A stretch of DNA of 51,560 nucleotides from Trueperaceae bacterium (GCA_011389865.1 JAABTL010000020.1:1-51560); one strand, 5' to 3'. Positions 20,882 to 34,315 are shown, counted from the stretch's first letter. The notes: generated from the sequence alone by a model not told the origin. A program made the numbers and translations.

Positions 20882-22435
20882 TCACCCCCCTCGGGGTGGG
20901 GTACGGAAGCGCGCCACGACCAGGGTGCAGTCGTCGTGGGTGGGCGCGCCCGCGACGAAGGCGTCGAGGGCCGACCGCACGGCGTCGAGCACCGCCTGGG
21001 CGTCGGCGTGCCGGTGGGCCGTCACGACCTCCAGCAGGCGGCCCTCGCCGAACTCGTTCCCTTCCGGGTCGCGCGCCTCGGTGACGCCGTCGGTGAAGGC
21101 GACCAGCAGGTCACCCGGCGCCAGCGCGACGGCGGCCTCGCCGAAGGCGGCGTCGGCGTCCCAGCCGACGAGGATGCCCGTGCGCGTCAGGCGCTCGACG
21201 CGGCCGTCGGCACGCAGCACGATCGGCGGGTTGTGGCCGGCGTTGACGTAACGCACCTCGCCGTCGGGCCGCAGCACGCCGTACCACAGCGTGACGAACA
21301 TGCCGTCCGAGGCGTCGAGGGCGGCCAGGCGGTTGGTGTCGGCGACGGTCTGCGCTGGCGAGCGACCGCCGGTCGCCGCGGCCCGCAGGAGACTGCGGGC
21401 GACGGCCATGAACAGCGCCGCGGGCATGCCCTTGTCGGCGACGTCCGCCACGACGACGCCCAGCGCGTCGCCCAGAGGCAGCAGGTCGTAGAAGTCGCCG
21501 GAGACCTCGCGGGCCGGCCGCCAGAAGCCTGCCACGCTCCAGTTCTCCGGCGCCGGCGTCTCGCGCGGCAGCAGGCGCGCCTGCACCTCGTAGGCCAGCC
21601 GCAACTCCTGCTCGAGTCGCTCCTGGGCCAAGGCGCGCTGGTGCAGCCGCGCGTTGTCGAGGAAGGCCGCCGCCTGGGTGGCCAGGGCCGTCAGCAGCTT
21701 GAGGTCGCCGGCGGTGAAGACGGCGTCGTCGCCCGCCCGTGTCAGCCACACGCCACCCAGGCAGGCCTCGCGCGCCATCATCGGGGCCCACAGCAGGTGT
21801 TCGCGGGCGCCGGGCCCGGCGGCGACGATGGCGGGAAGCTCGGGATCGGCCAGGCGCGCGCGTAGCCGAGCGGCGTCCCCGTCGACCGCGGACCGACCCT
21901 CGACGACGACCCTGGTGCGGGCGCCGGCCGCCTCGCCGGCCTCCTCGTCGGCGAGCCACACGCCGCCACCGTCGCCATCGATGACGCCGCGCGCCTCCGC
22001 CAGCACCCGACGCGGCACGGCGACCGGGTCGAGGGTGCCGGCCAGCGCGTCCCCGACGCGGTAGAGCAGGTGGATCTCGCGGTATCGCTCCAGCGTCTCG
22101 CCCGCCATGGCGCGCTGGGCTTGGGCGGCGGCCAGCGCGCGCTGCAGCGCGCCGTGGAGGGCCTCGACCGCCGCCTCCTCGGCGCCCGTCTGGGGGACCG
22201 GGTCGACCTCCAACAGGCCGACCTCGGCCGTGTCGACCGTGAGCGGCCACGTCCGGGCGACGTGCGGCTCGCGCCACGACTCGCCGATCTCCTCCGCGTG
22301 CAGCGCGCCGTCGGCCCGCCGCAGCCGCAGGCGGCCGCCGACGAGGATCCGCCCGAAGGGCGCGAGCAGCTCGCTGGCCGCACGCGCGGGCAGCAGCCGC
22401 CGCAGGCTCGCGCCCTCCGTCCCGATCGCGCTCAC
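20882..22435 (-). CDS. PP2C/SpoIIE-family serine phosphatase with GAF domain (RsbU/RsbP-like)
   Basis: 517 residues. An N-terminal segment of about 120 residues is followed by a GAF domain about 125-290 (LYRVGDALAGTLDPVAV...), a linker helix (EQELRLAYEVQARLLPRE) and a SpoIIE phosphatase domain to the end. Metal-binding residues are visible in VSGDFYDLLPL, VVVADVADKGMPAAL, VNAGHNPP, AFTDGVTEARD and THDDCTLVVAR. It should dephosphorylate the STAS protein and so switch on the pathway. It starts at GTG 22435, overlapping the kinase gene's stop by 4 bases, with no ribosome site of its own. Confidence 0.92.
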   Translation of the reverse strand: MSAIGTEGASLRRLLPARAASELLAPFGRILVGGRLRLRRADGALHAEEIGESWREPHVARTWPLTVDTAEVGLLEVDPVPQTGAEEAAVEALHGALQRALAAAQAQRAMAGETLERYREIHLLYRVGDALAGTLDPVAVPRRVLAEARGVIDGDGGGVWLADEEAGEAAGARTRVVVEGRSAVDGDAARLRARLADPELPAIVAAGPGAREHLLWAPMMAREACLGGVWLTRAGDDAVFTAGDLKLLTALATQAAAFLDNARLHQRALAQERLEQELRLAYEVQARLLPRETPAPENWSVAGFWRPAREVSGDFYDLLPLGDALGVVVADVADKGMPAALFMAVARSLLRAAATGGRSPAQTVADTNRLAALDASDGMFVTLWYGVLRPDGEVRYVNAGHNPPIVLRADGRVERLTRTGILVGWDADAAFGEAAVALAPGDLLVAFTDGVTEARDPEGNEFGEGRLLEVVTAHRHADAQAVLDAVRSALDAFVAGAPTHDDCTLVVARFRTPPRGG

Positions 22436-25400
22436 TGGAGGAGCACCAGCGGGACCCCGACGTCGCGCACGCGGTCGGCGAGGGCGCCCTCGTGGGCGAG
22501 CGGCGCGGGGGCCAGCAGCAGGTCCGGCCGGGCGCCGGGGGGCCGCCCGAGGGCCGCCACCGCCGCGTCGGCGTCGGCGAGCCGCTCGATCTGGTAGCCG
22601 GCCTCGTGCAGCGCCGCCATGACGCGCTCCGCGTGGCGGCGGTCGTCGTCGGTGGCCGCGTCGGGATCCACCACGGCGATGCGGGTGCCCGAGGCGGCGT
22701 CGCGCAGCAGGGCGTCGACCTCGCCCAGCAGCGCGCGGACGTCGACCGGCTTGGTGAAGTAGCGTTCGACGCCCAGGCGCACCCCGCGCTCCGGGTCGTC
22801 CACGACGCTGAGGATCATCAGCGGGATGCGCGCGGTCTCGGGATCGCTCTTGAGGACCGCGGCGACGTCGAAGCCGCTCAGTTCCGGCATCATCACGTCG
22901 AGCACCACCAGGTCGGGGCGCCGTCCGCGGACGGCGTCCACGGCGGCCCGGCCATCACCGGCCTCCACCACCGCGTGCCCCGCCTCCTCGAGTTCCTGCC
23001 GCAGCAGCGCGCGCACGCGCGCGTCGTCGTCGACCACCAGCACCGTCGCGCTCGCCTCGGCGCCGCCCTCGCCGGTGGTGCGCGTCCGCTCGACCAGCGC
23101 CGCGACGCGGCGGCGCAGGGCCGCCTCGGTCGCCCGGACCGTCGCACCCACCAGCTGGGCGGCGTCCTGCGGCGGCGCGGCCTCGGCGGCGATCGGCCGC
23201 GTCTCGGCGACCGGGTCGTCGACGGGGGCGTCGGCGCGCGTGTCGCGCGCGCCGCTCGCCTCGCGGGCAACCTGCCGGGGCGGCGCCAGGGGCACGACGA
23301 AGGCGAAGGTCGCGCCCTCGCCGTGGACGCTCTCGACCCAGATGCGGCCGCCGTGGTGCTCGACGATCTGCTTGCAGATGGGCAGGCCGAGACCCGTCCC
23401 CTGGGGCTTCTCGGTCAGCGTGTCGCCGACCTGGCGGAAGCGCTCGAACACCGTCGCGTGGTCCTCGGGCGCGATGCCGACGCCGGTGTCGCTCACCCGG
23501 ACGCTCACGGCCTCGCCCACCTCCGGGTCCTCGACGACGCGCGCGACGATGCCGACCTGCCCCTCGGTGGTGAACTTCACCGCGTTCGACACGAGGTTGA
23601 TGACCACCTGCGTCAGGCGGTCGCGGTCGCCGGTCACCCGCGGCAGGTCGTCCGCCAGGTCGAGGCTCAGGTCCACGCCCGGCTTCTGCTCGAACAGCCC
23701 GTGCGTCGCCTGCGCGGCACGCGTGACGACCTCGCCGAGGTCGATCGGCGCCATGCGCCAGTCCACGCGGCCGGCCTCGATCTTCGCGAGATCGAGCACG
23801 TCGTTGATCAGGTGGGTCAACCGCTGCGACTCGGAGTAGATGATGCCCGCGTTGCTGCGCACCTGGCTCACCGCCCGCCGCACCTTGCGATCCTCGCTGT
23901 CGGCGAGAGCGGGCGCCAGCACCTCGTCGAAGCGCCTCTCGATCAACCTGGCGAAGCCGAGGATCGATGTCAGCGGCGTCCTCAGCTCGTGCGAGACGTT
24001 GGCGAGGAACGAGCTCTTGGTGGCGTTGGCGGCCTCGGCCGCGTCCTTGGCCGCCCGCAGCTCCTCCTCGTAGCGCTTGCGGTCCGACACGTCGCGCACC
24101 AGGCCACGGAAGCCGACCGCGTGGCCCTTGGCGTCGTGCACCACGCCGATCGAGGCCTCGCCGTGGAACGCGCCGCCGTCGCGGCGGCGGAAACGGAACT
24201 CCCGGCGGCGCACGGGCTGGTCGGTCGCCATCACGGCCATGAAGGTCGCCATCACCTCGCGGACGTCGCGCGGGTCGACGAAGCGACGGTACGGCTGGCC
24301 GATCAGCTCGTCGAGCGAATCGGCCCCCAAGCCGGTGGCGAAGGCGGGGTTCGCCAGCCGCAGCACGCCGCCGGCGTCCGCCTCGAAGTAGGCGTCCTGG
24401 ATCGTCTCGAGGATCGTGCGGTACTTCTCCTCGCTGCGCCGCAGCTCGTCCTCGGCGGCGCGCCGCTCGACGAGCTCGGCCTGCACCTCCTGGTACAGGC
24501 GGGCCGAGTCGATCGCCACCGCGGCGCTGGCGACGAAGCGCCGCAGCACCGGCAGGTTGTCGCCCAGCGGCCGCCGGCTGTACGGGTTGTCGACCGCGAG
24601 GACGCCCACCGTGCGCCCGCGCGAGAGCATCGGCAGCACCGCCGGCGATCGCGAACGGAGCAACTTGTGGTCGGCGTACGGGGGCCGCACGCGCCAGGCC
24701 TCCGGGACGGCGACGTTGCCGTCGAAGACGATCTCGCTGGCATCGCGGTACACGGTCTCGAGCACCGGCACGCTGCCGTCGAGCGGCACCCGGTGGGAGG
24801 CACCCAGCGCCTGATCGAAGCCGATCCAGCTGGTGGTCTCGAGCGCGCCGCCGTCGTCGGTCGGCAGCCACACGACCGCCCGCTCGAAGCCCACGACCTC
24901 TTGGATCGCCTGCAGCACCAGGTCCATCCGCTCCTGCACCGAGGTCGGCTCCTGCATCGCCGTGGAGATGCGGCTGAGCTGCTCGCTCTCGCGGCGCCGC
25001 GCCTCGATCTCCTCGATCAGCCGCACCTGCTCGAGGGCGATGGCGCCGAGCTGGGCGAAGCGCGTGAGCAGCTCCTCCTCCTCGGGACGGAAGGTCCGCT
25101 CGTCGGCGCGGTCGCGCGCCAGCGCGATGACGCCCAAGGGCCCCGCGCCCGACACCAGGGGCGCCGCCATGGCCGAGCGAGCGAACGAGAGGTCGACGCC
25201 GCGCAGGCGCCCGCTCCAGCGCGCGTAGTCGTCGACGCGCAGGGGGCGCCCGTCGGACCACGCGCGGCCCGCCAGGCCCTCGCCGCGCCTGAAGACGAGC
25301 GCGGGGCGCACGGCGAACTGGCCCAGCGCGCCGTGCGGCTCGAGCGACGCACCACCCTGGCCGATCAGGTGGACGAAGCCGTGCTCGGCGTCCAGCGCCT

Positions 25401-26568
25401 CGCTCGCGTGCCGCAGGACGGCATCGAGCAGCTCGCCGATCGGTGCGCGGCGGGCGAGACCGTCGGTCACCTCGCGCAGCGCCCGCAGGTAGGCCTCCTG
25501 CTCGGCCAGGCGGCGCTCAGCCTGCTGCAGGGTGCGCTCGGCCAGGACCTGCCGGCCCGCGTCCTGCAGGCGCACCAGGTGGCCGGTCTGGCGCCCGTTG
25601 CGGTCGCTGAGCGGCACGACCTGGGCGTTGAACCAGCGCACCGGCTCGCTGCGGCGCCAGGCGAGGTCGACGTCGTCGGCGGCGTCCGCGTCGAGCCGGC
25701 GCAGCAGTTCGGGCTGGTCGTGGAAGAGGTCGGCGGCCGTGCGGCCGACGCCGTCGTCGGGGCCGTCGAGCCCCAGCAGCTCGGCGGCCGCCGGGTTGAG
25801 TTGCAGGGCCACGTGGCGCAGGTCGAACACGGCGATCGCGTCGCCCAGGTGGCGCATGACGGTCTCGCGGGCCACGGGGACGATGTCGAGCAGGCGGTGC
25901 GAGAAGAGGCTCTGCGCCAGCGCCGCGGCGCTGATCGCGAAGGTCAGCGGCGTCAGGTCGACGGGCAGGTCGACGCCGCCGAGCACCACGGCGACGTTGG
26001 CGACCCATGGCACCGCGACGGCGATGAGGACCAGCGTCACCTGCGCGCGGTAGCGCCGCGGGGTGCCCACGTAGCCGCGCAGCAGGTAGAACGACCCCAG
26101 CGCCAGCCACAGGTAGCTCGTCAGGGTGTGGACCCAGAACCAATCGCCGCGCACGACGAGCAAGCGGCCGTCGACGCTCTCCACCGAGCGCCACAGCAAA
26201 TCGTTCAGCGGGTAGGTCCACGCGAGGCCGATCGTGACGGCCGGCAACACCAGCAGCAGCGTGACGACGAAGCGGTTGAGCCACGCGCCCTGGCGCGTGT
26301 AGTCGTTGGCGAAGACGACGAAGGCGACGGGCAGCGTGGCGATCCCCAGGTACTTGAGCTGCATCCACAGGAGCTGGAGCGCGGGGTCGATCGCGGCGAA
26401 CTGCATGCCCTCGGCGAGCGCCCACATGGCGCCGGCCAGGGCGAAGAAGGTGAAGCTGCGCGCGCCGCGGATGGCGGCGCGGCGCGTCCAGGCGACCGCC
26501 GCCAGCAGCAACAGCACGGCGACGATGGCCCACAGGGCGAGAACGAGGGGTTGGGGCGGCCAGGCCAC
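22432..26568 (-). CDS. Hybrid histidine kinase: 7TM, PAS, GAF, GAF, PAS, HisKA, HATPase, receiver, truncated receiver
   Basis: 1378 residues from GTG 26568, which has GGAGG 5 bases upstream; a GTG two codons earlier (26574) abuts that site. About 225 N-terminal residues form seven membrane helices like the HisKA_7TM sensor. PAS about 235-340, GAF about 360-510, GAF about 525-700, PAS about 715-835. The kinase has SHELRTPLTS with phospho-His860, then NLVSNAVKFT, SDTGVGIAPED and GTGLGLPICKQIVEHHGG. A receiver follows with Asp1224 (VVLDVMMPELSGFD). A last, receiver-like piece (TRIAVVDPDAATDDD...) lacks the Asp and stops after its fourth strand. First gene of the five-gene signalling operon. Confidence 0.93.
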   Translation of the reverse strand: MAWPPQPLVLALWAIVAVLLLLAAVAWTRRAAIRGARSFTFFALAGAMWALAEGMQFAAIDPALQLLWMQLKYLGIATLPVAFVVFANDYTRQGAWLNRFVVTLLLVLPAVTIGLAWTYPLNDLLWRSVESVDGRLLVVRGDWFWVHTLTSYLWLALGSFYLLRGYVGTPRRYRAQVTLVLIAVAVPWVANVAVVLGGVDLPVDLTPLTFAISAAALAQSLFSHRLLDIVPVARETVMRHLGDAIAVFDLRHVALQLNPAAAELLGLDGPDDGVGRTAADLFHDQPELLRRLDADAADDVDLAWRRSEPVRWFNAQVVPLSDRNGRQTGHLVRLQDAGRQVLAERTLQQAERRLAEQEAYLRALREVTDGLARRAPIGELLDAVLRHASEALDAEHGFVHLIGQGGASLEPHGALGQFAVRPALVFRRGEGLAGRAWSDGRPLRVDDYARWSGRLRGVDLSFARSAMAAPLVSGAGPLGVIALARDRADERTFRPEEEELLTRFAQLGAIALEQVRLIEEIEARRRESEQLSRISTAMQEPTSVQERMDLVLQAIQEVVGFERAVVWLPTDDGGALETTSWIGFDQALGASHRVPLDGSVPVLETVYRDASEIVFDGNVAVPEAWRVRPPYADHKLLRSRSPAVLPMLSRGRTVGVLAVDNPYSRRPLGDNLPVLRRFVASAAVAIDSARLYQEVQAELVERRAAEDELRRSEEKYRTILETIQDAYFEADAGGVLRLANPAFATGLGADSLDELIGQPYRRFVDPRDVREVMATFMAVMATDQPVRRREFRFRRRDGGAFHGEASIGVVHDAKGHAVGFRGLVRDVSDRKRYEEELRAAKDAAEAANATKSSFLANVSHELRTPLTSILGFARLIERRFDEVLAPALADSEDRKVRRAVSQVRSNAGIIYSESQRLTHLINDVLDLAKIEAGRVDWRMAPIDLGEVVTRAAQATHGLFEQKPGVDLSLDLADDLPRVTGDRDRLTQVVINLVSNAVKFTTEGQVGIVARVVEDPEVGEAVSVRVSDTGVGIAPEDHATVFERFRQVGDTLTEKPQGTGLGLPICKQIVEHHGGRIWVESVHGEGATFAFVVPLAPPRQVAREASGARDTRADAPVDDPVAETRPIAAEAAPPQDAAQLVGATVRATEAALRRRVAALVERTRTTGEGGAEASATVLVVDDDARVRALLRQELEEAGHAVVEAGDGRAAVDAVRGRRPDLVVLDVMMPELSGFDVAAVLKSDPETARIPLMILSVVDDPERGVRLGVERYFTKPVDVRALLGEVDALLRDAASGTRIAVVDPDAATDDDRRHAERVMAALHEAGYQIERLADADAAVAALGRPPGARPDLLLAPAPLAHEGALADRVRDVGVPLVLLQ

Positions 26569-26622
26569 GATCACCTCCAGCGGGTCCTCCCCCCCTCGGG
26601 AGGGCGCGGCGCGGGTGGTGCA

Positions 26623-27562: not shown

Positions 27563-29422
27563 CTAGAAGGGGAAGAGCCGCGGCACGATCAAGACCGTCA
27601 CGATCAGCACCAGCAGCTGCATCGTCACCCCGACGCGCAGGAAGTCGCCGAAGCGGTACTGGCCGACGCCGAGCACCAGCGTGTTGACCGGCGAGGCCAC
27701 CGGGGTCGCGAACGCCGTCGACGCCGCCAACGCGACCGTCAGCAGCAGCGGGTAGGGCGACACGCCCAGCGTGAGGGCCGCCTGGAACGCGATCGGCGCC
27801 ACCAGCACCGCGGTGGCGGTGTTCGAGATCACCTGGCTCGCCAGCGACGTCAGCAGGAAGAGACCGACGAGCATCGCCAGGGGCCCGTACGGGCCGACGC
27901 CGGCGACGAGCGCGTCGACCACCAGCTGCATGCCCCCGGTGACCTCGAGCGCGGTCGCCATCGGCAGGATGCCGGCGATCAGCACGACGCTCTCCCAGCT
28001 CATCGCGCGGTACGCCTGCTCCATCGACAGGCACCCCGTGATGATCATCGCGATCGCCGCGAGGCCCGCGGCCATCACGGTCGGCAGCCAGCCGAAGGTC
28101 ATGACGATCAGCATCGCCAGCATGATGGCGATCGCGACCGGCGCCTTGCGGGCGGCGTCGCGCGAGACGGCCGCGTCCTCGGGCTCCGCCAGCACGACGG
28201 CGTCCGCCTGCTCGCGGCGCAACGCCGCGATCGCGGCGCGGGGGCCCTGCACCAGCAGCGTGTCGCCGAAGCGCAACCGCAGCTGCCCCAGGCCCTCGGT
28301 GACGGTCGCGCCGCCGCGCTGCACGGCCACCACCTGGACCCGGTAGCGCTCCCGGAAGTGGAGCTCGGTCAGCGTGTGGTCGAGCCAGCGCGAGCGGGGG
28401 GTCGGCAGCACCTCGATGACGCCGAGGTCGCGGGGCATGACGTCCTCGTCGAAGTGGTCGAGCGCCTCGACGTGCAGGCCGAGATCGCGCCCGAGCTCGT
28501 GCACGTGGTCGGGGTGCCCCTGCACCAACAGCCGGTCGCCGTGCTCGATCACCGTGTGGGCATCGACGGGCTTGGACGCGCGCGCGCGGGCGCGCTGCAG
28601 GGCCCACGGCGCGTCGGGCTCGACGTCGACGGCCAGCACCTGGACCTGGTGGCGGTCGGACCAGTGCAGGGTGCCCAGGCTGGCGCCCTCGAGGTCGTGA
28701 CCGGCGGGCAGGTGGAGGCGGAACAGGCGCGCGGGAAGCCCGTAGCGGTCGACCAGCTCGCCGAGGCTGACGTGCTCCTGACGGGCCTCGGGGTTCGCCG
28801 GCGCGCGGCTGGGCAGCCAGTGGCGCCCCACGAGCACCATGAAGCCGATGCCCACCGCGAGGATGACGACCGCGACGGGCGTGAACGCGAAGAAGCCGAA
28901 CGGCTCACGCCCCTGGGCCCTCAGCAACTCGGCCACGACGACGTTGGGCGGGGTGCCGATCAGCGTCAGCATGCCACCGAGCAAGGAGGCGAACGACAGC
29001 GGGATCAGCAGCTTCGACGGGCTGATGCGCGCCCGCCACGCGAGCGTCACCACCACCGGGAGCATGACGGCCACCGTCCCGGTCGAGCTCATGATCCCGG
29101 AGAGCAGCGCGGTGATCAGCATGATCAGCAGGATCAGGCGCCCCTCGCCGTCGCCGGCGACGCGGCCGAGCCACATCCCCAGTCGCTGGGCGACGCCGGT
29201 GCGGAACATGCCGCCCGAGACCACGAAGAGCGCGGCGATCATGATGACGAGCGGGTCGCCGAAGCCGGCCAGCGCCTCTCTGGGCGTGAGGATGCCGGTG
29301 AGCACGAGGGCCGCCGCCGACATCAGCGCCACGAGGTCGAGCCGGATGCGGTCGCTGACGAACAGCGCGATCGTGGCGGCGAGGATGAGGAAGACGGTCA
29401 GGACGTCCTGGTCCACGGGCAT
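27563..29422 (-). CDS. SLC13/DASS-type permease with two RCK_C (TrkA-C) domains
   Basis: 619 residues. Membrane segments lie at about 1-220 and 390-619, split by two soluble RCK_C-like domains (LHLPAGHDLEGASLGTL... and TLTELHFRERYRVQVVAV). Family signatures are MSSTGTVAVMLPVV and IGTPPNVVVAELL. Such permeases carry anions, e.g. sulfate or dicarboxylates, with sodium; the substrate here is not decidable. The ATG at 29422 overlaps the TGA of the nosF-like gene (TGATG), so the permease appears to be the last gene of the nos-like operon. Upstream in the same frame are only low-complexity residues antisense to other genes. A TAGATT and a GGGGAG site precede the ATG. Confidence 0.9.
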   Translation of the reverse strand: MPVDQDVLTVFLILAATIALFVSDRIRLDLVALMSAAALVLTGILTPREALAGFGDPLVIMIAALFVVSGGMFRTGVAQRLGMWLGRVAGDGEGRLILLIMLITALLSGIMSSTGTVAVMLPVVVTLAWRARISPSKLLIPLSFASLLGGMLTLIGTPPNVVVAELLRAQGREPFGFFAFTPVAVVILAVGIGFMVLVGRHWLPSRAPANPEARQEHVSLGELVDRYGLPARLFRLHLPAGHDLEGASLGTLHWSDRHQVQVLAVDVEPDAPWALQRARARASKPVDAHTVIEHGDRLLVQGHPDHVHELGRDLGLHVEALDHFDEDVMPRDLGVIEVLPTPRSRWLDHTLTELHFRERYRVQVVAVQRGGATVTEGLGQLRLRFGDTLLVQGPRAAIAALRREQADAVVLAEPEDAAVSRDAARKAPVAIAIMLAMLIVMTFGWLPTVMAAGLAAIAMIITGCLSMEQAYRAMSWESVVLIAGILPMATALEVTGGMQLVVDALVAGVGPYGPLAMLVGLFLLTSLASQVISNTATAVLVAPIAFQAALTLGVSPYPLLLTVALAASTAFATPVASPVNTLVLGVGQYRFGDFLRVGVTMQLLVLIVTVLIVPRLFPF

Positions 29423-30234
29423 CAATCTACGCTCCCCGCCCCGGCCGGCGGTCCCGCCGCGCCATCGGCCGGCGGGCTCGACGCGCCATCGGCCGGCGGA
29501 CCCGCCGCGCCGTTGGCCGGCGGGCTCGCCTCGTCGCCCACGACGGCGCCGGCCTCGAGGCGCAGCAGGCGGCGCGGCGCGTAGGCGGCGACCTCCTCGT
29601 CGCGGTGGGCGCCCACCACCACCGTGCCGCCCGCGGCCGCGTGGGCGCGCACCCACGCCGCCAGCCGCGCCAGGCCTTCACGGTCGAGGCTGGCCGCCGG
29701 TTCGTCGAGGAACCACACCCGCGGCGCCCCCATCAGGGCCGACGCCAACGCCAGCCGTTGGCGCTCGCCGCCCGAGAGGCGCGAGGCGCGGCGCGCGAGC
29801 AGCGGCGCGAGCCCCATGCGCGCGATGGCGTCGGTGACGGCCTCGTCGCCCACGCCGCGGCAGGCGCGCGCGACACCGAGCAGCTCGTCCACCCGCGCGC
29901 GTCCCGGGAAGGCGACGGCCTGCGGGACGTCGGCGCGGGCGAGCGCCGCCGCGGGCGAGCGGGCCGGTGCGCCGGCGACCCATACGCGGCCGCGGGTGGG
30001 CACGAGACGCCCCGCCATCAGCGCCAGCAGCGTGCTCTTGCCCGCCCCGTTGGCGCCGAGCAGCGCCAGGACCCCGGGGCCGACGCTCAGGTCGAGCGGG
30101 GCGAGCCGCCCGTCGACGCCGGCGCCCTCGAGCCGCACGGCGGCGGGCGCCTCCTGGTCGGTCGGCCGCGGATCGGCGGGCGCGGGCGGCGTGCCGGTGG
30201 CCCCCGCCTGTGGCGAACCAGGCGACCGGCTCAT
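29422..30234 (-). CDS. nosF: NosF-like ABC transporter ATPase
   Basis: 270 residues. Walker A LLGANGAGKSTLL, signature LSGGERQRLALASAL, Walker B VWFLDEPAASLD and switch His in VVGAHRDE are present. The call to NosF is from position between NosD and NosY-type genes. The domain is short and has an N-terminal Pro/Ala stretch and a C-terminal repeated tail PPADGA. It would power the NosY permease, which with NosD is thought to support copper centre assembly in nitrous oxide reductase. The ATG at 30234 overlaps the nosD stop by 4 bases. Confidence 0.82.
   Translation of the reverse strand: MSRSPGSPQAGATGTPPAPADPRPTDQEAPAAVRLEGAGVDGRLAPLDLSVGPGVLALLGANGAGKSTLLALMAGRLVPTRGRVWVAGAPARSPAAALARADVPQAVAFPGRARVDELLGVARACRGVGDEAVTDAIARMGLAPLLARRASRLSGGERQRLALASALMGAPRVWFLDEPAASLDREGLARLAAWVRAHAAAGGTVVVGAHRDEEVAAYAPRRLLRLEAGAVVGDEASPPANGAAGPPADGASSPPADGAAGPPAGAGSVD
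29442..29533. repeat. 24-bp tandem repeats at the 3' end of the nosF-like gene
   Basis: Units begin at 29442, 29466, 29490 and 29514 (core CGGCCGGCGG, the fourth starting TG instead of CG). In the protein they encode the repeated octad PPADGAxx just before the stop. The period of 24 keeps the frame, so copy number could vary without disrupting the gene. Confidence 0.8.
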
Positions 30235-31595
30235 GCCCAACCCCGCGCGTTCGCGACGGCACCGAACGCGAGCGCGAGCGCGGCCAACGCCGCGGCCCAG
30301 CCGGCACGGTCGGGCCGCCCCACGGTCGCCGGCAGCCGCGGCAGCGGGTCGGCGAACGCCGCCCCGCGCAGCCCGGGCACGCTCGCCTCGAGCCGCTGCC
30401 ACAGCGCGATCCCCGGCCCGTACGCCAACAGCATGAGGTCCGGCTGGCGCGCCGCGCGGGCGGCGAACGCCGAGGTCGCGACGTAGGGCAGATCGAGCGT
30501 GCCGTCGCCGTCGAGGTCGAGTGGTGGCGCACGATCGAACGCGTTCCCCCGCAGCGTCAGGGCCGCGTCGTCGTCCGCGACCGCCAGGTCGGCCGCGTTG
30601 GCCACGAAGGCATGGTCGACGATCGTCACCGAGCTGGCGTCGGCGACGCTGCCGACGGGCGCGCGGTCGAGGAGCACGCCGACGCCGTTGCCCTCGAGCC
30701 GGTTGCCGTCGAGCCGGGCGCCCGAGGCCGCCACCAGCAGCAGGCCGACGGTGTTGCCGCGGGCGGTGTTGCCCGTCAGCACGGCGTCGCGCTCCTCCTG
30801 CAGCAGCAGCCCGAAGGCCATCGGGCCGCGGTGCCCCGTGAGCCGGTTGCCCGTGACGACCGCGTCGCGGCCGTACATCACCGCGGAGCCGACGCCGCCA
30901 CCGGCCACGACGTTGTCACGCAGCGTCACGCCGGCCGTGAACATCACGTGCAGCCCATAGCGGCGGCTGTCACGGGCCTCGACGCCGGCGACGAGCGCCC
31001 CGTCGGCCCGCTCGAGGTAGGCCCCGTCGAGGAACCCCTCGATGCGGCCCCCCTCGACGCGCAGCCCGGGCGTGAGGTAGCTGGTGACGCCGGGGCCGCG
31101 GGCGTCGCCGCGCAGGTCGAGGTCGAGCAGCCGCACGTCGCGCGCGTCCTCGACGTGGACCCCGGCGGTGACGCCGTGCGCGCGCAGCCCCTGCACCAGC
31201 GCGCCGTGCGCACCGAACAGCGCCACCGCCGCGTCGGGGGCGTAGAGGTCGGCCTCGGGTCCGACGCCGCTGACCGTCAGGCCCTCGATGCGCACCCCCG
31301 GCGCCGTCACGGTCAGCGCGGTGCCGCGGCCGCCGCCGTCGAGGACGGCGCCGGGCTCGGCGCGCAGGCGGACGTCCGGCGCGTCGATCGTCCACGGCCC
31401 CACGTGGACGCCGGGCAGGAGGCGCAGCTCCGCGCCCGGCGTCAGCGCCGGCAGCGGGTCACCCGCGGCGATGGTGATCGGGTCGGCACCCGTGGTCGCC
31501 GTCGCGGTGGCCACCGGCCCCCACGACGCGAGGAGCAGCCACGCCAAGCCCGCGCGGAGAACGACGGCGACGGGAGAAGCGGCGGGCGGGCGCAT
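30231..31595 (-). CDS. nosD: NosD-like periplasmic beta-helix copper-assembly protein
   Basis: 454 residues. Start MRPPAASPVAVV is followed by a hydrophobic export signal ending near ATATA. The rest is a right-handed beta-helix with repeats such as DARDVRLLDLDLRG, GRDAVVTGNRLTGHRG and LTGNTARGNTVG, the NosD/CASH pattern, plus NosD-like DLPYVATSAFAA and a last hydrophobic helix GWAAALAALALAFGA that probably anchors the C terminus. The ATG is supported by a TACGAT box 9 bases upstream, so the gene can also be transcribed independently of nosY, whose stop is 159 bp upstream. In nitrous oxide reducers NosD helps to build the Cu sites of NosZ. Confidence 0.88.
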   Translation of the reverse strand: MRPPAASPVAVVLRAGLAWLLLASWGPVATATATTGADPITIAAGDPLPALTPGAELRLLPGVHVGPWTIDAPDVRLRAEPGAVLDGGGRGTALTVTAPGVRIEGLTVSGVGPEADLYAPDAAVALFGAHGALVQGLRAHGVTAGVHVEDARDVRLLDLDLRGDARGPGVTSYLTPGLRVEGGRIEGFLDGAYLERADGALVAGVEARDSRRYGLHVMFTAGVTLRDNVVAGGGVGSAVMYGRDAVVTGNRLTGHRGPMAFGLLLQEERDAVLTGNTARGNTVGLLLVAASGARLDGNRLEGNGVGVLLDRAPVGSVADASSVTIVDHAFVANAADLAVADDDAALTLRGNAFDRAPPLDLDGDGTLDLPYVATSAFAARAARQPDLMLLAYGPGIALWQRLEASVPGLRGAAFADPLPRLPATVGRPDRAGWAAALAALALAFGAVANARGWA

Positions 31596-31604
31596 GCTGT
31601 GGGC

Positions 31605-31610
31605 ATCGTA
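31605..31610 (-). promoter_or_regulatory. -10 box TACGAT for the nosD-nosF-permease unit
   Basis: TACGAT on the minus strand is followed by 9 bases and the ATG at 31595; a near-leaderless start inside the cluster. Confidence 0.5.
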
Positions 31611-31656
31611 CGGAGGGCGTCGTCGGGACGTTCGCCCCGGCCTAGGTGCGCCGCCC

Positions 31657-31704
31657 GCGGCGCTGCCCTCGGCGCTGCCCGCGGCGCTGCCCTCGGCCCC
31701 GCCC
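31657..31704. repeat. Four 12-bp tandem units between nosY and nosD
   Basis: GCGGCGCTGCCC at 31657-31668 and 31681-31692, alternating with TCGGCGCTGCCC (31669-31680) and a diverged TCGGCCCCGCCC (31693-31704). The 159-bp gap around it holds no gene that I can support. Confidence 0.75.
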
Positions 31705-31754
31705 CTGGCGCGTGCGGCGGCGCGCTCGGCGTGACGGGGGTTCACCGCGAACGC

Positions 31755-32537
31755 CTAGCGGGACCGGCGCGCCAGCACCCCGCCGGCGACCAGCGTGAGC
31801 AGCGCCGCACCGACCAGCGAGGTCACGCCGGCCCAGAAGGCCGCGCCCAATGGCGCCCAGCCCCACCAGCGCTCCAGCAGCAGCCCCGTCGGACCGACGA
31901 ACACCGGCGTGTCGAGCGTCCGCAGCAACGCCACCCGGGCGATCTCGAGCGGGTGCGCCAGCACGAGCACCGCGAGGTACGGCTCGAACGCCCGCTCGGC
32001 GAACGCCACCGCCAGCGCGACCAGCGCCGGTTCGTAGGCCACCACGCCCAGTCCCCACACGACCGCGCCCAGCGCGACCGCCTTGGCCGGCTCGAGCGTG
32101 GCGGCCGCGACCAGGCCGGCCAGGGCGCCGTACGCGACGACGATCGCGGCCACCGAGCCCACGAGGGCGGCCGCCGCGACCGGCGCCGCCCCCACCACCG
32201 CGGCCGCCGCCGCCGCGCCCGCGGAGAGCGGCAGCAGCGCCCCCAGCGTGGCGCCGATCACCGCGCCGCGGTACGCCCCCGCCGGGCGCGTGGCCAGGGA
32301 GCCCCAGAAGGCCCAGGTGGTGCGCCGCGCCAGGCGTGGCGCCAGGAGCGCGAGCACCGCGGGCGGCAGCAGCAGGGCCGCCACGCCGAACACCGACATC
32401 ACGCCGACCTCGGGGGCCAGGGCGCGCCAGGAGAGCGCCGTCAGCGGCAGCATCGCGGCGACGAGCCACACCCACGGGTCGCGGGCGAGCTCGCGCCGGT
32501 GCAGCGCCTCGAAGGAGAGCGGCCGCGGCGTCGTCAC
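31755..32537 (-). CDS. nosY: NosY-like ABC permease
   Basis: 260 residues from GTG 32537, overlapping the nosL stop by 4 bases. It starts VTTPRPLSFEALHRREL, a usual start for NosY (cytosolic helix before the first membrane span), and has six or so hydrophobic segments rich in Ala and Val. It should partner with the NosF-like ATPase to move a sulfur species or other factor needed for copper centre formation. The frame continues upstream but over the nosL gene without recognisable residues. Low-complexity Ala/Gly composition makes this less certain than the neighbours. Confidence 0.8.
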   Translation of the reverse strand: MTTPRPLSFEALHRRELARDPWVWLVAAMLPLTALSWRALAPEVGVMSVFGVAALLLPPAVLALLAPRLARRTTWAFWGSLATRPAGAYRGAVIGATLGALLPLSAGAAAAAAVVGAAPVAAAALVGSVAAIVVAYGALAGLVAAATLEPAKAVALGAVVWGLGVVAYEPALVALAVAFAERAFEPYLAVLVLAHPLEIARVALLRTLDTPVFVGPTGLLLERWWGWAPLGAAFWAGVTSLVGAALLTLVAGGVLARRSR

Positions 32538-33097
32538 ACCAGCGGCACCCAGGGGCGCGGGATCCCCAGCTCGAGGACCTCGTCCCAGGTCAGCACGCTC
32601 GGCTCCGCGAGCCGCTGCGCCTCGGCGAACGCGAGCGCCTCCGGCTCGTCGCCGAAGGCGGCCAGGCCGCCGCCCATCGGCGTGCGCAGGCGCGGGTGGT
32701 GGAGCAGCGTGGCCACTTCGGCGGGCCACCACACGGACGCCGCCTGGGTCGACGCCACACGGTCGGCGAGCCATGCGGCGCTCACGACCGGGACCGGGCC
32801 GGCGTGCCCGTTGAGGTGGTCGGCGAGGCACTCGATCGCGTCGTAGACGAGCGTGCGGCCGCCCTCGGTGCGCGCCTGCGCGGCGAAGCGGGCGTCGACG
32901 ACGGCCATGCCACAGGCCGGGCAGCGGTCGTCACCGATCGCCACACCGCGAGGCTCCGGATCCGTCGTCTGCGCCGCCGCGCGGCCCCCCGCCACGAGGA
33001 AGCCGGTGAACGCGGCCAGCCAGCGCAGCGCCGCCCGCCGTGAGAGGGTCGGCCGACGCGGTCGCGTCGGCCGACGCCCCACGGCGTCCTCCGCCAT
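32534..33097 (-). CDS. nosL: NosL-family copper-binding protein with Tat-type signal
   Basis: 187 residues. The N terminus has SRRAALRWLAAF, a twin-arginine-type signal that ends about AAAQ (residue 43). The mature part begins with DDRCPACGM (Cys59, Cys62, Met64), the copper-binding motif of NosL, followed by ARTEGGRTLVYDAIECLADHL. NosL delivers Cu+ to nitrous oxide reductase. Most NosL are lipoproteins with a Cys at the cleavage site; here a Tat signal replaces it. It sits between a second NosL-like gene (10 bp upstream) and nosY (overlap). Confidence 0.88.
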   Translation of the reverse strand: MAEDAVGRRPTRPRRPTLSRRAALRWLAAFTGFLVAGGRAAAQTTDPEPRGVAIGDDRCPACGMAVVDARFAAQARTEGGRTLVYDAIECLADHLNGHAGPVPVVSAAWLADRVASTQAASVWWPAEVATLLHHPRLRTPMGGGLAAFGDEPEALAFAEAQRLAEPSVLTWDEVLELGIPRPWVPLV

Positions 33098-33107
33098 CGC
33101 CGCGACC

Positions 33108-33870
33108 TCAGCCGAACTGCCGCTGCAGCAGCGGCACGAGGTTGGCGATCGGCAGGGGGGCGAGGTCGGCCAGCAGGGCGAGGTCGAGATAGCGCCGGCG
33201 ACCGAGTTGCGCGCTGCGCGGGGCCACGAACGCGGCGGCGTCGGCCTGCCGCGCGAAGGCGCCCACCTTCGCCATCATCGAGGCCGGCAGGCGCTCGGCC
33301 CACAGGAACGTCGCGCCGGCGGCCGCCAGCAGTTCGGCGTGGGTCGGTGGTTCGGCCTGGTCGTAGGTCGCGACGTACAGGGCGGCGCCCTCACCATCGA
33401 CGACGCCGTGGGCGTAGGCCCAGCCGAGCGCGCAGCCGATCGATTCGAAGTGGCGCGCCTCGCCTTCGAACGCCCACTGGGCGTAGGTCCGCTCGCGGAA
33501 GCCCGCTCCCTGCGGCGCGGCCGGCGGTGTCGCCAGCGTCATGTCGCAGAAGGCGCAGCGGCCCTCGGTCCAGGGGATCGCGTGCGCCTCGGGCCGGCCC
33601 ATCGCGGCGCCGGCCGGGGGCGGCGTCGCGCCGCCGCCGGGCGCCATGCCCATGGCGGCCCGCCGCTGGCGGCGGGCCGCCGCTGGCGGCGGGCCCGGTG
33701 CCGTGCTGTTGGTCGTGCTGCATCTGGCCCTGGGCGGCGGCGGTCGCGCCGCTGGCGGCGACGAGGGCGCCGGCGGCGAGGGCGCCGAGGCGCTGGATCG
33801 CGCGGCGACGTTCGGGATCGAAGGTGGCGTCGGGGGCGGGCTTCGGGTCAGGGAGACGAACGGGGGGCAT
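33108..33870 (-). pseudogene. Second NosL-like exported protein, split by a frameshift
   Basis: The start MPPVRLPDPKPAP (ATG 33870, AGAGG 5 bases upstream) leads to ERRRAIQRLGALAAG and a signal ending about GATAAAQ, then QGQMQHDQQHGTGPA. The C-terminal part, MGMAPGGGATPP then GRCAFCDMTLATPP, is in another frame and reaches the stop at 33108. The switch falls at 33661-33694, where a 17-bp palindromic unit is tandemly repeated. The C-terminal part carries a NosL-like CxxCxM and IGCALGWAYAHG. Either the gene is inactive, phase variable, or the assembly has a mistake in this hard-to-sequence hairpin. A net 1-bp loss, or two 17-bp units fewer or one more, would restore the frame. Confidence 0.75.
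33661..33694. repeat. 17-bp exact tandem duplication within the NosL-like gene
   Basis: CGCCGCTGGCGGCGGGC at 33661-33677 is repeated exactly at 33678-33694. The unit is itself an inverted repeat (CCCGCCGC...GGCGGG across the junction). Since 17 is not a multiple of three, copy changes shift the reading frame of the NosL-like gene. Confidence 0.9.
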
Positions 33871-33973
33871 GGCAACCTCTTCGCGTGGACGGGCTGCACC
33901 GCGTGCGGCGCGCCGGGTAGCGACGGCGCGGGGGCCGTCGCGTTCGCTTCGTTGGCATCGGTAGCGGGCGGAC

Positions 33974-34315
33974 TCAGGCCGGCGAGAAGGCGCCGACCGC
34001 CAAGCCCGGGGCCGGCGGGTCGCGCCCCAGGCGCGTGCGGCCGGCCCGCGGGCGCGGCGCGCTCGACCGCGGGCGGGCGCGGCGGCGCCTGAGGCTCGCC
34101 GCGGGGCCCGGCACCGGCGACGCGACGATCGCCGGCGCGCCGACGCCCCCCACCTCGAGCAGCGCGTGCGCGTGATCGGGCGTGCCCGCCGGGTGCGCAT
34201 GGCCCACCTCGGGCAGGGCGGCCGCCAGCGCGACGGCCGCGGTCGCCTGCAGCAGCAGGACGACGAGGGTGGCTCGGGCACCACAGCGCAGCGCTCGGGA
34301 CAGGCGCGCGGACAT
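33974..34315 (-). CDS. Small exported histidine-rich protein at the head of the nos-like cluster
   Basis: 113 residues. MSARLSRALRCGARATLVVLL... has a basic start and a hydrophobic stretch ending in ALAAALPEV, a signal peptide or anchor. It is followed by GHAHPAGTPDHAHALLEVG, with five His in 14 residues, able to bind copper or another metal. The rest is Arg/Pro rich. I do not recognise the family. It has its own TAGGGT box 7 bases before the ATG and lies 103 bp upstream of the NosL-like gene in the same direction, so it probably heads that transcription unit. The C-terminal half may be less reliable, since it is of low complexity. Confidence 0.55.
   Translation of the reverse strand: MSARLSRALRCGARATLVVLLLQATAAVALAAALPEVGHAHPAGTPDHAHALLEVGGVGAPAIVASPVPGPAASLRRRRARPRSSAPRPRAGRTRLGRDPPAPGLAVGAFSPA

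Follow-up and report, generated by a model that had tools for sequence, protein, structure and literature searches.

A 2022 cryo-EM study of NosDFY reportedly laid the basis for a relay in which NosL hands Cu(I) to NosD and ATP drives its onward passage to a client protein. This route from NosL through NosD to the client has been summarised elsewhere (PMC13068155). In Pseudomonas stutzeri, NosDFY and NosL (PDB 7o0y, 7osf) assemble the CuZ site of nitrous oxide reductase NosZ, and the canonical proteins serve CuZ, not CuA (PMC6530538, PMC7558416). The Cu(I) motif of NosL is defined as CxM or CxxCxM, and the Cu(I) features of clade II NosL are CxxCxM and a second conserved Met (PMC6530538). Clusters with NosD, its partners and NosL that lack NosZ have been reported in Parageobacillus thermoglucosidasius (PMC13068155) and as clusters 4 and 5 of B. 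azotoformans (PMC3475470), so this NosZ-less kind is already known. For CuA, T. thermophilus PCuAC inserts both copper ions in vitro and SCO reduces the cysteines (PMC6696091). The PCuAC/SCO pair for CuA of the Thermus ba3 oxidase resembles the genes described below in handling copper in the periplasm and is linked to them in Thermaceae; nevertheless, it consists of chaperones without an ATPase and is not homologous to them.

Gene set in the window

The window analysed here, 51,560 nucleotides long, is the entire contig C12 of a Trueperaceae genome (G000; 3.05 Mb, 97% complete). On its minus strand, positions 27563-34315 encode, in order of transcription, a small exported protein, NosL1, NosL2, NosY, NosD, NosF and an SLC13/CitMHS permease (Table 1). 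Judged by sequence, the set is probably a copper relay of the NosDFY-NosL type for a client other than NosZ. The original prediction of a His-rich exported protein, two NosL, NosY, NosD, NosF and an SLC13 permease on one strand was borne out, although the span given to it, 29422-34315, leaves out the permease. Many 4-base overlaps had also been described, which was overstated: NosL2/NosY and NosD/NosF overlap by 4 nt and NosF/SLC13 by 1 nt, and elsewhere adjoining genes are 10 to about 160 nt apart.

Table 1. Genes of the nos-like set in the window, in order of transcription
Feature	Position	Strand	Characteristics
Small exported protein	33974..34315	-	113 aa; signal/TM segment followed by LPEVGHxHPAGTPxHxHx; leads the set
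NosL1	33108..33870	-	Tat-type signal RRRAIQRLGALAAG and CAFCDM NosL domain; PF05573 33.7 bits
NosL2	32534..33097	-	Tat-type signal SRRAALRWL, CPACGM NosL domain, without lipobox; PF05573 27.7 bits
NosY-like membrane permease	31755..32537	-	260 aa; profile match to canonical NosY
NosD-like periplasmic beta-helix protein	30231..31595	-	Signal and C-terminal TM helix; TIGR04247 198.7 bits, PF05048 75.2 bits
NosF-like ABC ATPase	29422..30234	-	PF00005 85.8 bits; starts 4 nt inside NosD, junction ATGA
SLC13/CitMHS-type permease	27563..29422	-	PF03600 326 bits; two TrkA_C domains

The small exported protein found no match in a Pfam search. Homologues occupy the equivalent position in other loci (L030_5, 77%; L032_10, 56%; L084_7, 43%), and the protein is retained in the window's genus (g1) and in genus g12. 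Downstream of the permease, a 1380-aa multi-domain sensor kinase with a receiver domain (22432-26574) is kept across the genus.

Copper-binding features of NosL and NosD

Both NosL proteins exceed the PF05573 cut-off of 24 bits and carry the Cu(I) motif, and the lipobox Cys of a lipoprotein anchor is missing from both. Among 15 NosL1 and 14 NosL2 proteins, CxxCxM is present in 29 of 29 and a twin-arginine (RR) motif in 28 of 29, and inspection of the leaders revealed neither a lipobox nor any Cys ahead of CxxCxM. Alignments showed CxxCxM and a later Met to be conserved in NosL1, and C59, C62, M64 and M141 to be invariant in NosL2. The two proteins form distinguishable groups in the tree (NosL1 with support 94/93, NosL2 weakly supported), and NosL1 leaders of relatives are frequently rich in Met and His. 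The AlphaFold model of NosL2 (pLDDT 89) matched best the NosL structure 7og7 (E 1e-5, TM 0.75 by target length) and also 7osf_H; for NosL2, the structure prediction that had been proposed as a check returned a NosL fold with CxxCxM kept. In two Thermus-like loci (L078 10395-10835, L076 6691-7131), an extra 146-aa exported protein (HESRQVGxYRVVIGF) without a Pfam match stands between NosL1 and NosL2.

In the window NosL1 is frameshifted: its Tat signal starts near 33870, and the domain ORF (33108-33653) is in a different frame. The cause is a GC-rich net insertion of 16 nt relative to the sister species (94%-identical protein), which lies in the linker (window 33600-33720). As the sister gene (L030) is intact, an assembly error and a fresh lesion are both possible.

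The NosD kind found in the window is here labelled NosD*. Its profile matched a single PDB sequence, P. stutzeri NosD (7o0y, E 7e-40), and 7o0y_A was also the top PDB fold match of the AlphaFold model (pLDDT 80); this predicted fold match is clear, although with a TM of about 0.5-0.57 and a high rmsd the model is not closely superposable. The residues RYGxHxM and Met240 are invariant in NosD*, canonical NosD and P. stutzeri NosD, and may be the copper ligands of NosD. NosY found no match in Pfam, NCBIfam or PDB sequence searches. Profile comparison nevertheless identified it as a homologue of canonical NosY from NosZ clusters (98.8%, E 6e-17), with orthologues in related loci, so that its earlier assignment stands on this comparison and not on sequence matches. 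A beta-helix NosD homologous to that of P. stutzeri is adjoined by a NosF ATPase and a NosY permease, as in the NosDFY complex.

Taken against P. stutzeri, the locus has homologous NosD, NosF, NosY and NosL, models of NosD and NosL2 that match solved folds, and the RYGxHxM site and copper motif. It differs in lacking NosZ, in a separate NosD clade that falls under the TIGR04247 cut-off, in two NosL proteins that both carry Tat-type signals without a lipobox, in a NosY unrecognised by Pfam, NCBIfam and PDB sequence searches and, in Thermaceae, in its neighbour PCuAC. Compared by gene content, the Bacillota clusters have one NosL (a lipoprotein in P. thermoglucosidasius) and linkage to NirK, whereas two Tat-type NosL and linkage to PCuAC/SCO characterise the genes studied here.

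Absence of NosZ and a separate NosD clade

Neither the window nor G000 as a whole yielded a NosZ of any of the clades I, II and III. The whole-genome search with TIGR04244 returned a sole match, the CuA domain of cytochrome oxidase subunit II (26 bits), and the clade III model NF052460 a weak one below its cut-off (E 2e-4). The statement that the window lacks NosZ therefore extends to the 97%-complete genome, and the alternative that NosZ lies elsewhere is contradicted for G000; because the window is an entire contig, nothing can lie just outside it on this assembly, nosZ included. In addition, NosD of the window scores 198.7 bits against a TIGR04247 cut-off of 300, which its canonical counterparts in Trueperaceae pass with more than 400. 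A clade III L-NosZ as hidden client was rejected, as none of the 111 Deinococci genomes reached the NF052460 cut-off; partial matches to this model also catch clade I/II NosZ, in 14 relatives. The search for copper oxidases that had been proposed found in G000 one COX2 with a CuA domain, one SCO and a NirK, the last on C66 (L099 6758-7936). The absence of a cupredoxin noted earlier accordingly holds for the genes of the set and not for the genome, with its COX2 and NirK. G000 may be an incomplete denitrifier, with NirK and without NosZ.

TIGR04247 splits NosD of the relatives into proteins above 400 bits, from genomes with NosZ, and NosD* at 140-233 bits. Among the 111 genomes, 57 carry NosD*, and nearly all complete copies score 450-678 bits with the NosD* profile (pieces at contig ends fall below 450), against 160-207 bits for canonical NosD, giving a bimodal distribution. 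In the tree NosD* forms its own clade apart from the NosZ-linked NosD of relatives (support 100/100) and clusters mostly by family, the pattern that vertical descent should give. Of the genomes with NosD*, 49 of 57 showed no NosZ in the NF052460 search, and those lacking canonical NosD that were tested with TIGR04244 had NosZ in no case.

Both NosD kinds occur together in eight genomes. In genus g28, which belongs with the Oceanithermus-like g23 to a family-level group (f3), a nosZ cluster that has two NosL and a DFY set to itself stands across recN from the genes of the NosD* kind, and G050 has the latter at the same flanks without the nosZ cluster. From this it follows that the canonical nos set and the set described here are separate systems. 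The canonical Sec-dependent (clade II) nos clusters of Trueperaceae and Marinithermaceae (L044, L045, L071-L074) have the same gene types; however, they hold NosZ and an adjoining exported small protein, and their NosD falls in a distinct clade. In the g28 clusters (L071, L072, L073, L074), there are two NosL-like proteins, and the separating recN-like gene lies on the opposite strand. Another Trueperaceae-family genome, G016 (100% complete), encodes NosZ (C15; L087 8534-10489, TIGR04244 431 bits) with no adjoining NosDFY and no NosD match genome-wide, and thus apparently has NosZ without its assembly machine.

Conservation of the core

The core comprises NosD, NosF, NosL1, NosL2 and NosY. The 18 loci read hold these five genes as a block on a single strand (with NosF of L081 below the score cut), so that the proposed comparison with related genomes yielded a conserved block in two orders: Thermaceae and f3 have D-F-L1-L2-Y, the window's genus and g12 have L1-L2-Y-D-F. 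Conserved over Thermaceae, Marinithermaceae and Trueperaceae, the core is inherited across the Thermus-Meiothermus-Trueperaceae lineage mostly without NosZ. A scan of named genomes with short peptide patterns matched only in Deinococcota, the patterns being too short to measure spread outside the phylum. Loss of the core in G002, of the same genus as the window, was considered and rejected, as a contig end at least partly accounts for it and NosF adjoining SLC13 is present there. In the Thermus-like G086 most of the core is deleted, and pieces of NosY and NosD remain beside PCuAC-SCO (L091 8403-8963; G086:C8:68633-68899).

It is very unlikely that the set is a drifting leftover of a nos operon after loss of nosZ. 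Homology to nos accessory proteins, the NosL1 frameshift and the deletion remnant in G086 would fit such decay. Nevertheless, NosD* stands apart from the NosD that accompanies NosZ within the phylum, three families conserve the five-gene block, the sister species and the majority of the other loci read have the Tat leader of NosL1 in frame, and the eight genomes with both kinds argue that the core is no stray nos remnant.

The permease has a different history. SLC13 adjoins NosF in all five species of g1 (G000-G004; in G002 the contig ends inside the core) and lies on the core's contig in g12, adjacency being limited to g1. In Trueperaceae, orthologues turn up in genomes that have NosD* and in genomes that lack it; in other genera they lie elsewhere in the genome (about 2 Mb from the core in G011), and none was found in any of the core loci examined in Thermaceae and Marinithermaceae. 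With linkage confined to the window's genus, apart from the shared contig in g12, SLC13 was rejected as a part of the core and is a local addition. Joint conservation of SLC13 and NosD, by which the original prediction was to be judged, thus fails outside the genus, and inside it five of five species keep the SLC13-NosF pair. The idea that a sulfur species is exported through the permease is not supported. An earlier suggestion had NosDFY supplying sulfide for CuZ (PMC6530538), and SLC13 and NosF overlap by 1 nt in the genus, but an ABC unit exporting a sulfur species or other ligand jointly with SLC13 is extremely improbable given SLC13 orthologues away from the core, also in genomes without NosD*, and SLC13-free cores in two families.

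Genomic context and the putative client

In 26 of the 31 Thermaceae genomes (one of the 31, G086, has only the core remnant), PCuAC is at most 5 kb away from NosD*, in two different arrangements. In Meiothermus loci (including L038) it follows NosY on the same strand, and in the Thermus-like genus g20 a divergent PCuAC-SCO pair stands beside NosD. Core-less genomes keep PCuAC (PCuAC-SCO in g20) at the same flanks, indicating that the core behaves as a cassette beside CuA chaperones. PCuAC is absent from G000 and other Trueperaceae except G019, which lacks the core. The linkage evidence therefore comes from another family, and in that of the window only the co-presence of COX2 and SCO speaks for CuA. 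No COX gene stands beside the core in any locus read.

COX2 is encoded in 57 of 57 core-bearing genomes, and the core in none of the seven genomes lacking COX2 (Fisher p 0.005, kinship ignored). In genus g23, for instance, G038 and G042 lack COX2, SCO and core alike. The core is not obligatory for CuA, since 47 genomes with COX2 show no detected core.

The suggestion that the set matures a different copper enzyme gains support from the separate NosD clade, the genomes with both kinds, the PCuAC linkage in Thermaceae and the conserved copper-ligand motifs. CuA of cytochrome oxidase subunit II is the likeliest client of such a re-assigned NosDFY-NosL relay, a reading for which we see about equal grounds for belief and doubt. 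The fuller proposal, that a vertically inherited, ATP-driven relay of the NosDFY type with two Tat-exported NosL metallates CuA in Thermaceae, Marinithermaceae and Trueperaceae, is tentative and somewhat less probable. Copper transfer by the core, its direction and its client are what we infer; the analysis shows the homology, the separate clade, the lack of NosZ, the conserved core, PCuAC linkage in Thermaceae and the ligand motifs. Two further points count against this explanation: the canonical NosL and NosDFY serve CuZ rather than CuA, and NosL1 is frameshifted in the window.

In the proposed mechanism, Cu(I) would be bound at the CxxCxM of both Tat-exported NosL proteins, of which NosL1 in many relatives has a Met/His-rich leader. 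The copper ion would then pass from NosL to NosD, whose periplasmic beta-helix bears the invariant RYGxHxM...M site, and ATP hydrolysis by NosF, acting via NosY, would switch NosD from a NosL-bound to a client-bound state, as for P. stutzeri NosDFY. The client would be the CuA site, served together with SCO and, where present, PCuAC, and the relay would probably be important under copper scarcity.

Alternatively, the core might be a general periplasmic store or resistance system for copper, controlled by a metal sensor and without a single client enzyme. Meiothermus and Thermus-like loci have CsoR-family repressors close to the core (together with a thioredoxin-like protein in Meiothermus), and the Met/His-rich NosL1 leaders and frequent loss of the core would suit such a function. 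CsoR-family genes may sense other ligands too, however; the gene linked to the core encodes a CuA chaperone and neither an efflux ATPase nor a copper oxidase, and in the one case studied NosDFY uses ATP to deliver to a protein client. This alternative is therefore rather unlikely.

Another copper enzyme, in G000 NirK, is also an unlikely client, slightly more so than a store. NirK is encoded in G000 (TIGR02376 353.7 bits) and has been proposed as the client in P. thermoglucosidasius, whose NosL-NosDFY locus lacks NosZ (PMC13068155), but it is not linked to the core here. The distribution of Cu-oxidase_3 proteins does not agree with that of the core either: many core-bearing genomes have none (for instance the well-covered G010 and G022 of genus g7), and many core-less genomes have several. 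A multicopper oxidase or NirK was accordingly rejected as the general client.

Biological implications

The Deinococcota form, with two Tat-type NosL and PCuAC linkage, was not found described in the literature searched, nor was any paper on the core in Thermus. A survey of Thermus denitrification reported no nosZ and did not mention nosD (PMC10989939). With 49 of 57 core-bearing genomes showing no NosZ, the presence of NosD or NosL is no safe sign of N2O reduction. In the literature NosL has been described as dedicated to nitrous oxide reductase CuZ; if the CuA reading is true, this would be the first demonstrated case of a NosDFY system working for an enzyme besides NosZ, and the core suggests an extra step in CuA assembly, for which PCuAC and SCO were thought sufficient. 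Its occurrence without NosZ in cultivable thermophiles such as Meiothermus taiwanensis offers a natural system for the role of NosDFY outside N2O reduction. In the Thermus/Meiothermus branch, the position of the core beside CuA-loading genes suggests that the machine serves respiration on oxygen.
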